Assembly: GCA_030615625.1 (NCBI GenBank)
Contig: JAUWYX010000001.1
Span: 1-64,000, forward strand
Reading direction: 5' to 3'
Source: Dehalococcoidia bacterium
GTDB taxonomy: Bacteria > Chloroflexota > Dehalococcoidia > GIF9 > AB-539-J10
DNA length: 64,000 nt
Each line of letters opens with the position of its first letter. Positions within the stretch are counted from its first letter, which is position 1. Below, one piece after another: positions 46,991 through 48,864 of this stretch. Made by a program: the position numbers and the translations under genes. Under the pieces are notes generated by a model. It was not told the origin of the DNA. It saw nothing but the letters and a program-made list of their open reading frames with translations, and ran no database searches.

Positions 46991-47230
46991 CTAGATTTTT
47001 GATTCGATGTAGTCGAGTGCGTCTTGAACAGTTTGTAAATTTTCCGCGTCCTCATCGGAGATTTCGATTTTGAAGGTGTCTTCCACCGCAGTAATCAATT
47101 CAATAAAGTCCAGGCTATCAGCATTAAAGTCATCAGCAAATGACGCCTCCGGCACTATTTTCGATTCATCGACCTCCAACAGCTCCACGATCAACCCTTT
47201 TAGCTGTTCAAAGGTTTCGTTCTCACTCAT
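46991..47230 (-). CDS. acpP: Acyl carrier protein
   Basis: A 79-residue acidic helical protein. The phosphopantetheine attachment Ser is in DDFNADSLDFIELI near residue 37. The C-terminal helix ENLQTVQDALDYIESKI is normal. AAAGGGGGCGACAAA precedes ATG. It lies upstream of fabF. AcpS at 10063 is the likely modifying enzyme. Confidence 0.96.
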   Translation of the reverse strand: MSENETFEQLKGLIVELLEVDESKIVPEASFADDFNADSLDFIELITAVEDTFKIEISDEDAENLQTVQDALDYIESKI

Positions 47231-47405: not shown

Positions 47406-47423
47406 AAGCTCCCCGGGCAGGAC
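47406..47423 (+). repeat. Direct repeat of tRNA-Asn 3' end (att copy, left)
   Basis: The 18 bases AAGCTCCCCGGGCAGGAC are identical to 48040-48057, where they form the 3' end and T-arm side of tRNA-Asn. Here no tRNA continues beyond the repeat. This is what a site-specific integration into a tRNA leaves at the far end. Confidence 0.85.
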
Positions 47424-47441
47424 GACGTTAGAACCCATCTT

Positions 47442-47993
47442 TTAAGAAATTACCCAAAAACCACCCCCGTTTTCTTTTCCGTGGGATTCTATGGCTTTGG
47501 ATATTTCCTCTAAAGAAACATTTCTATATTTTGGCACCCTGTATTCAGGATCAATTAAGGTTACAATATCATCCTCTATATTTTCTATAATAGAAACGTG
47601 CCCCCTACTATCTCTTTGTTTATGATATAGATTTTTATAATCAAAACACACAATAATATCTTTATCTTTCAGATTCTTTTTTAAGAATTCCTTTATTTCT
47701 TTTGGTTTAATTAAAAAGGAACGTTCTTCTTTAAGGTTTATTCGGTTCTTTCTAAAGAAATTATTTAGTGAGTAGATTAACTTCCCTGTCTGTGTCCCCC
47801 AGCCATCTTTTGGCCTTTTACCCGTTCTGACTTTTCCGAATAATTTCTTATACCTTTGTGGAACAATTAACCCCAAGTCATATCCTATTTCCTCCTGTGA
47901 TTTTAACGGTATGCCCCGCCTCAACAAAATCATTTGTATACAAGCTGGAACACAACAATATGGCTGTTCTGTTATGGGAATATATTTTTTCAT
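47442..47993 (-). CDS. C39-like cysteine protease-fold protein
   Basis: A 183-residue protein with a papain-like C39 pattern. The N-terminal TEQPYCCVPACIQMILLRRG gives the catalytic Cys (QxxCxxA-type), and DSRGHVSIIENIEDD gives His, with LIDPEYRVPK giving Asp. The Lys/Ile/Asn-rich, AT-rich codons contrast with neighbours, indicating recent transfer. No signal peptide or membrane segment is seen, so it is not a bacteriocin exporter. It may cleave a peptide or act in an anti-phage or toxin role; nothing in the sequence decides. It is the only gene of the tRNA-Asn element. Confidence 0.72.
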   Translation of the reverse strand: MKKYIPITEQPYCCVPACIQMILLRRGIPLKSQEEIGYDLGLIVPQRYKKLFGKVRTGKRPKDGWGTQTGKLIYSLNNFFRKNRINLKEERSFLIKPKEIKEFLKKNLKDKDIIVCFDYKNLYHKQRDSRGHVSIIENIEDDIVTLIDPEYRVPKYRNVSLEEISKAIESHGKENGGGFWVIS

Positions 47994-48039
47994 ATCTCAA
48001 TTTTACTAAAAACCGCCCAAATAAATAGGCGGGAAAGCA

Positions 48040-48057
48040 AAGCTCCCCGGGCAGGAC
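48040..48057 (+). repeat. Direct repeat within tRNA-Asn (att copy, right)
   Basis: The right copy of AAGCTCCCCGGGCAGGAC. It spans the 3' acceptor strand and part of the T-arm of the intact tRNA-Asn gene. Confidence 0.85.
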
Positions 48058-48114
48058 TCGAACCTGCAACCAAGCGGTTAACAGCCGCCTACTCTACCAT
48101 TGAGCTACCGGGGA
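48043..48114 (-). tRNA. tRNA-Asn (GTT)
   Basis: On the minus strand the acceptor TCCCCGG pairs with CCGGGGA, the anticodon loop CTGTTAA gives GTT, and the T-arm is GCAGGTTCGAGTCCTGC. CCA is not encoded. Its 3' 18 bases are duplicated at 47406. Confidence 0.95.
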
Positions 48115-48307: not shown

Positions 48308-48787
48308 TTATTTTAGCTCACTCTGAGAGATATAACTCTCATCACCAGGCAAATTCGGTTGCTGGGCAGCTTGCATGGCTAGCTCGTCGCAGCGTATATT
48401 TTCCGGGGTTCCGGCATGCCCTTTAACCCAGCTAAACTGTACCTCATGATACTCGCATAGTTGCAAGAGCCTTTCCCAGAGGTCGGGATTCAACGCTTTT
48501 TCCCGTTTATTGCGCTTCCACCCGATTGCTCGCCATTTCTGAGCCCATCCTCTTGACATCGCCTTGACTAAGTACTCGGAATCACTGTACAACGTCACTT
48601 TGCATTTCCCTTTTAGAGCCTCTAATCCAACAATCGCAGCCATTATTTCCATTCGGTTATTGGTAGTTTTGCGATAGCCCCCTGATAGCTCTTTTCTGTG
48701 ACCCTGATAGAGGAGTATTACTCCATACCCACCGGGGCCAGGATTTCCGATGCATGCGCCATCGGTATATATAGTCACGTGCTTCAT
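48308..48787 (-). CDS. rnhA: Ribonuclease HI
   Basis: Cleaves RNA in RNA-DNA hybrids. The DEDD active-site residues lie in [46 protein letters not shown] and [10 protein letters not shown]. The basic handle [18 protein letters not shown] is present, and [18 protein letters not shown] follows. The start ATG 48787 fits the family (KHVTIYTDG); ATG 48796 is an alternative adding three residues. The protein has about 159 residues. It stands between tRNA-Asn and tRNA-Gln. Confidence 0.95.
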
Positions 48788-48864
48788 TTCTTCCATTGTA
48801 GTTTTTATTTTGACATCAAGACTTTCACTTGGATAAGGCTATACCTTTCCCTGCTGATTTTAAT

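Follow-up and report, generated by a model that had tools for sequence, protein, structure and literature searches.

In this Dehalococcoidia genome, the only tRNA-Asn gene has a precise, integrase-less, single-gene insertion at its 3′ end. The window, by which we mean the whole 64,000-nucleotide stretch of DNA that was analysed, contains no N. We consider it likely that the insertion is a CIME-like micro-element that was integrated in trans, plausibly by a serine integrase of the type encoded by the viral contig L208. The locus consists of the following features.

46991 to 47230, minus strand: acyl carrier protein gene (acpP), named from its sequence; it forms the left flank and adjoins tRNA-Asn in relatives with an empty site.
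47406 to 47423, minus strand: distal 18-bp repeat, an exact match, read as the displaced original tRNA-Asn 3′ end together with the bases that originally followed it; this is the att junction farther from the tRNA.
About 47424 to 48041, no strand: inserted DNA, 33.7% GC, without a blastn match to nine empty-site loci and absent from congeners.
47442 to 47993, minus strand: cargo gene, an ORF for a 183 amino acid C39/papain-like protein with relatives in Patescibacteria and Micrarchaeota (structure model pLDDT 88.9).
48013 to 48032, minus strand: terminator-like hairpin between tRNA-Asn and the cargo gene, CCGCC...GGGCGG followed by TTTTTAG.
48040 to 48057, minus strand: proximal 18-bp repeat, read as a 3′ end that the element supplied and that now completes tRNA-Asn; this is the att junction adjoining the tRNA.
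48042 to 48114, minus strand: tRNA-Asn(gtt) predicted by ARAGORN, the integration target and the sole tRNA-Asn-like match in the genome.
48308 to 48796, minus strand: ribonuclease H gene, named from its sequence; it forms the right flank and is syntenic in relatives.

There are exactly two copies of the 18-mer AAGCTCCCCGGGCAGGAC in the 1.62-Mb genome (47406-47423 and 48040-48057), with one mismatch allowed, and a reversed-pattern control gives no match. Their start-to-start spacing is 634 bp. About 15 bases of the repeat belong to the tRNA (the 3′ strand of the T-arm, the 3′ strand of the acceptor and the discriminator), and the other 3 lie immediately downstream. A first-pass annotation made from the letters of the window had described this exact copy and its spacing correctly. 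It had also named, as grounds for rejecting its proposal, a repeat that occurs in many non-tRNA places, and the 18-mer is found nowhere else in the genome. Among the tRNA genes of the genome that were tested, using flanks of at least about 1.5 kb that are shorter at contig ends, only tRNA-Asn has a repeat of comparable kind within 1 kb. The interior between the repeats is indeed AT-rich, as had been claimed, with 33.7% GC versus 47.0% for the window, and it is the lowest of all 618-bp tiles in the window. The cargo gene occupies 89% of this interior, leaving 18 bp to one repeat and 46 bp to the other. No convincing promoter was found for it, and terminator-like sites, judged by consensus only, number 3 versus 1.2 expected by chance.

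Empty junctions between acpP and tRNA-Asn are found in nine of 19 congeners (G001, G003, G005, G006, G007, G011, G014, G016 and G017), wherein the acpP spacer leads directly into an intact tRNA-Asn. The flanks of the window, once the insert is removed, are 94.8% identical to G003 over 213 columns, and the insert itself has no blastn match to any of the nine empty-site loci. On its acpP side the distal repeat is bordered by GGGATGAATTCCAA, which is the same sequence that precedes tRNA-Asn in the empty site of G003. Because GGGATGAATTCCAA adjoins tRNA-Asn in G003, the distal copy is the end that the tRNA had originally, and the one now completing the tRNA arrived with the insert. Of 52 family genomes, this is the sole one in which the 16-base tRNA end occurs twice within 1 kb of a single contig. 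These empty sites, together with the duplicated tRNA end and the single ORF that fills the insert, uphold the earlier proposal of an integration at tRNA-Asn with one cargo gene and no integrase. They also supply the empty site that had been suggested as a check, and relatives do not share the arrangement, which had been proposed for refutation in the form of an arrangement common to all relatives with unremarkable GC.

The anatomy of the site suggests how the element may have arrived. An att sequence carried by the element would have furnished the tRNA with its new 3′ end (48040-48057), thereby displacing the old one by 634 bp (47406-47423). The predicted attP, or circle junction, reads ...GGCGGGAAAGCAAAGCTCCCCGGGCAGGACGACGTTAG... 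There is no integrase inside the insert, whose only filling ORF is the C39-like gene, and therefore the insert probably moved with a borrowed one. The integration would have been carried out by a recombinase that acted in trans or has since been lost; that a site-specific recombinase integrated it in trans has good support from the anatomy. The best candidates as a class would be large serine integrases that target tRNA genes, of the kind encoded by L208, where the integrase gene terminates in the same 18 bp. This class is a plausible mover.

Among the viral contigs, the 18-mer is found exclusively in L208, within the 3′ end of a gene for a protein of 544 amino acids (L208:175-1809). The domains of this protein (Resolvase, Recombinase and zinc-ribbon) are those of a large serine integrase, and the tRNA end in the 18-mer lies about 1553 nucleotides from the integrase start. 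Four integrases of the same subfamily (L231, L236, L238 and L239) have an ORF that runs into a convergent tRNA gene, and in each the tRNA 3′ end is 1533-1560 nucleotides from the integrase start. Their tRNA partners are tRNA-Ser in the viral contig L231, tRNA-Ala in congener G012, and tRNA-Ile in congeners G009 and G019. Because the L208 18-mer is homologous in position and orientation to the tRNA ends in these related integrases, it would most simply be an attP for the 3′ end of tRNA-Asn. A single 18-mer match could arise by chance given the size of the collection, and the position within the gene alone argues otherwise. No distal tRNA repeat was found at the serine-integrase loci of congeners, because the contigs end there.

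The genome under study has no match to an L208-type serine integrase, and the att arms of the element beyond the 18 bp are unlike those of L208. Thus, L208 is considered to represent the class of recombinase and not the actual helper. There are six matches to tyrosine recombinases in the same genome. The element has led to large serine integrases with genes running into tRNA genes as a candidate recombinase class. The ORF of a more distant serine integrase (L242, from G015) runs into tRNA-Gln. A paper from 2014 states that only tyrosine recombinases are known to target tRNA genes (PMC4383910), and the serine integrase ORFs that run into tRNA genes (Ser, Ala, Ile, Ile and Gln) contrast with this statement.

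The first-pass annotation had recommended looking for other cargo at the same tRNA, and different small inserts are present there in two congeners. In G015, an intact tRNA-Asn is followed by a GIY-YIG gene (Pfam E 5e-17) and then by a degenerate old tRNA-Asn. The GIY-YIG gene of this insert (L117:1128-1600, G015:C47) encodes 87 amino acids, and the degenerate tRNA copy contains short TCCTT...GAAGGA hairpin-like stretches. In G019, the tRNA-Asn is broken near the anticodon by an insert of about 1.1 kb (L042:1510-2710, G019:C47), which carries a complete divergent tRNA-Asn on the opposite strand along with a SEC-C ORF, and in which no integrase was seen. This 99%-complete genome gave no further tRNA-Asn-like match of similar quality, and therefore the tRNA on the insert probably stands in for the broken one, in keeping with the logic of tRNA-dependent lysogeny (PMC10865867). 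Orphan tRNA-Asn 3′ fragments of 43-45 nucleotides also occur in congeners G005, G016 and G017 (L112:2717-2759, L116:3011-3055 and L115:3875-3919), and they are probably what remains of att sites from other integrations of larger size.

It is possible, though not the reading we favour, that the locus is the decayed remnant of a larger element that carried its own tyrosine or serine integrase at tRNA-Asn, wherein an internal deletion spared the two ends and a single gene. Integrases occur commonly across the genus, the orphan fragments just described suggest larger integrations in the past, and CIMEs are generally regarded as decayed elements (PMC5704250). However, such a deletion would need to have halted exactly at either end of a gene that is intact, and an interior that is 89% gene, with 18 bp and 46 bp separating it from the repeats, holds no scrap of an integrase.

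The micro-element that we favour instead is a very small form within the CIME-like integrase-less islands, which are an already known kind. A CIME is an island flanked by attL and attR that lacks integration and transfer genes (PMC5704250). The element is likewise flanked by att repeats derived from the 3′ end of its target gene and has no recombinase inside; there is no integrase or transfer gene among the ORFs that fill it, and its site is empty in the nine congeners. Unlike CIMEs, it measures only 634 bp, holds one gene, lacks a tandem helper neighbour and is known here from sequence. The islands found at ssrA in Dehalococcoides have an integrase gene over attL, and 15 islands without an integration module may, as the authors of that work suggest, be cis-mobilizable (PMC3146451). 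As with the present element, integration occurred at the 3′ end of an RNA gene that is present once, the direct repeat left behind measures some 20 bp, and there are integrase-less members. In their helper-type elements the serine integrase gene overlaps the att site, as in the L208-type anatomy. The ssrA islands differ in their tmRNA target, in their multi-gene cargo (reductive dehalogenases) and in their tandem arrangement.

Like the tDNA islands of the Islander type, the element is bounded by a regenerated tRNA on one side and by a tRNA 3′ fragment that has been displaced on the other, in the correct order and orientation. Because Islander requires an integrase gene and a length of at least 2 kb, such that candidates of less than 2 kb are rejected (PMC4383910), an element with 634 bp and no integrase is invisible to it. 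The same tRNA-Asn carries other small inserts in congeners, and elements of such size go unseen by island finders.

The cargo was originally called C39-like on the strength of a weak Pfam match. When the cargo is searched alone, Peptidase_C39_2 is matched at E 0.12 and 13.4 bits, which is below the curated cut-off of 24, and single-sequence searches (Pfam, NCBIfam, PADLOC, and phmmer versus PDB) give no secure hit. A single-sequence structure model is likewise poor (pLDDT 52). A model from an 8-row alignment reaches a pLDDT of 88.9, and its matches include the pseudomurein endoisopeptidase PeiR and the phytochelatin synthase Alr0975 (each with a VIA Z of 14.7), with the peptidase domains of ComA and PCAT1 at a VIA Z of about 13. 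Similarly, PF13529 is matched at E < 1 by five of eight scanned members of the cargo family. The family alignment and the structure model thus agree with the original assignment, and the cargo is predicted to have a papain-like fold of the C39/phytochelatin-synthase-like kind.

Cys14 is invariant among 16 aligned members, His132 is kept in all of them except L147 (Ala), and Asp148 is kept in all except one (Asn). A putative catalytic Cys-His-Asp set (Cys14, His132 and Asp148) is therefore present in the cargo. Position 9 is Glu in the window protein versus Gln in each of the other 15 aligned members, and Gln10 is present. In papain-like enzymes, the Gln equivalent to position 9 forms the oxyanion hole. 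The cargo has Glu9 in place of this oxyanion-hole Gln before the catalytic Cys, and therefore its activity may be lowered; even protease activity is uncertain. The two nearest members have different active-site changes, with His replaced by Ala in L147 and Gln9 replaced by Glu in the window copy.

The cargo shares the order of Cys, His and Asp and the overall fold with the Peptidase_C39_2/C39 and phytochelatin-synthase-like papain fold. It differs from C39 peptidases in that it is a free-standing protein of 183 amino acids without an ABC transporter domain, has Glu9 and falls under the Pfam cut-off. We regard a cytosolic cysteine peptidase or acyltransferase, kept as a single gene, as its probable identity. 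An identity with Tae4 was dropped, as the hit is weak (E 0.01) and is found in one member only.

The cargo gene is missing in 59 relatives as well as in 399 further genomes from the phylum. It has no match in viral contigs, plasmid records or phage records at the sensitivity used, and a pattern search for loci related to the cargo found no relative. Its relatives were found by a scan for the motif C-V-P-A-C-x-Q-M, which gave 25 hits, more than half of them chance matches. Seven are clear relatives, and they come from Parcubacteria, WWE3, Jorgensenbacteria, Kerfeldbacteria, Peregrinibacteria and two Micrarchaeota. Outside this genome, genes of the kind thus belong to tiny bacterial epibionts and to small archaea. 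The closest is parcubacterial (L147:2318-2866), at 64% identity on the amino acid level and 71% on the nucleotide level over 554 bases; the other relatives from Patescibacteria and Micrarchaeota are at 31-45%. A profile search gives a strong match in eight of 380 sampled Patescibacteria genomes, mostly one gene each and in varied neighbourhoods, and no tRNA gene was detected near these eight matches in the surrounding stretches that were fetched.

The GC content of the cargo gene (0.33) and its GC3 (0.30) are Patescibacteria-like, whereas the measured host genes have a GC3 of 0.42-0.57. Pairwise comparison with L147 by NG86 gives a dN of 0.23 and a dS of 1.79, the latter being near saturation, which suggests purifying selection on the cargo over the divergence of these two sequences. 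We infer an ancestry of Patescibacteria/DPANN type for the cargo, with the direction of transfer read from this distribution.

The first-pass annotation had also raised a possible satellite, with a cargo that could act in competition or defence. In its active form, this would be a mini-element that a temperate phage specific for tRNA-Asn mobilises and packages, with a protease cargo that acts on the phage or on competitors, and we judge it decidedly unlikely. The L208 serine integrase is located near a gene that resembles a peptidase-type endolysin (named from its sequence), and papain-like proteases act as interbacterial toxins (PMC12136450). However, the element consists of a single gene, no integrase, replication or packaging gene is seen in it, and none of its sequence could be assigned to packaging, replication or regulation; on this count it could equally be a decayed remnant. 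The suggested role in competition or defence fares no better, as there is no PADLOC model match, the cargo is missing in viral contigs and phage records, and the change of the oxyanion-hole Gln9 to Glu may have reduced activity.

A tandem duplication of tRNA-Asn, after which one copy decayed and an unrelated gene was inserted between the two, would dispense with site-specific integration and might be likened to the intact tRNA-Asn and degenerate copy that lie about 0.3-0.4 kb apart in G015 or to the second, divergent tRNA-Asn of G005. Yet this is very improbable, because a decaying tRNA would give graded similarity along more of its length, whereas the distal copy comprises the last 15 nucleotides of the tRNA only, is perfect over 18 bp and ends abruptly, and empty-site relatives have one tRNA-Asn here. 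There is least chance of all that assembly or binning misjoined a Patescibacteria fragment into the genome. A Patescibacteria-like cargo in a draft genome of 19 contigs with 1.1% estimated contamination speaks for it, but host DNA continues on both sides of the site within a 288-kb contig, the junctions exactly duplicate the tRNA 3′ end, which is a signature of integration and not of a chimera, and 18 bp is shorter than the k-mers usually used by assemblers.

A micro-element of 634 bp with one gene of Patescibacteria/DPANN type suggests an inter-phylum transfer route that can be searched for systematically. A broader and rather doubtful idea is that one-gene ‘tRNA cassettes’ are spread in this lineage by large serine integrases that phages and islands encode and that are specific for tRNA genes. 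Each cassette would be a compact unit composed of a cargo, a terminator and two tRNA-end att sites, would move only in trans and would carry genes between phyla. If this were true, then the Patescibacteria, members of which live on other bacteria, would be the source of the gene here, and a possible host lineage its recipient.

A tRNA-Met on contig C16 was dropped as a second case from the same genome, as its repeat is longer, diverged and present in congeners too. This tRNA-Met follows the rRNA operon (L132:743-3700, G000:C16), and a 5′-truncated tRNA-Met with a duplicated terminator is located 2.8 kb further on. Between the two copies are ferredoxin-like and aldehyde ferredoxin oxidoreductase-like genes, which are named from their sequences.
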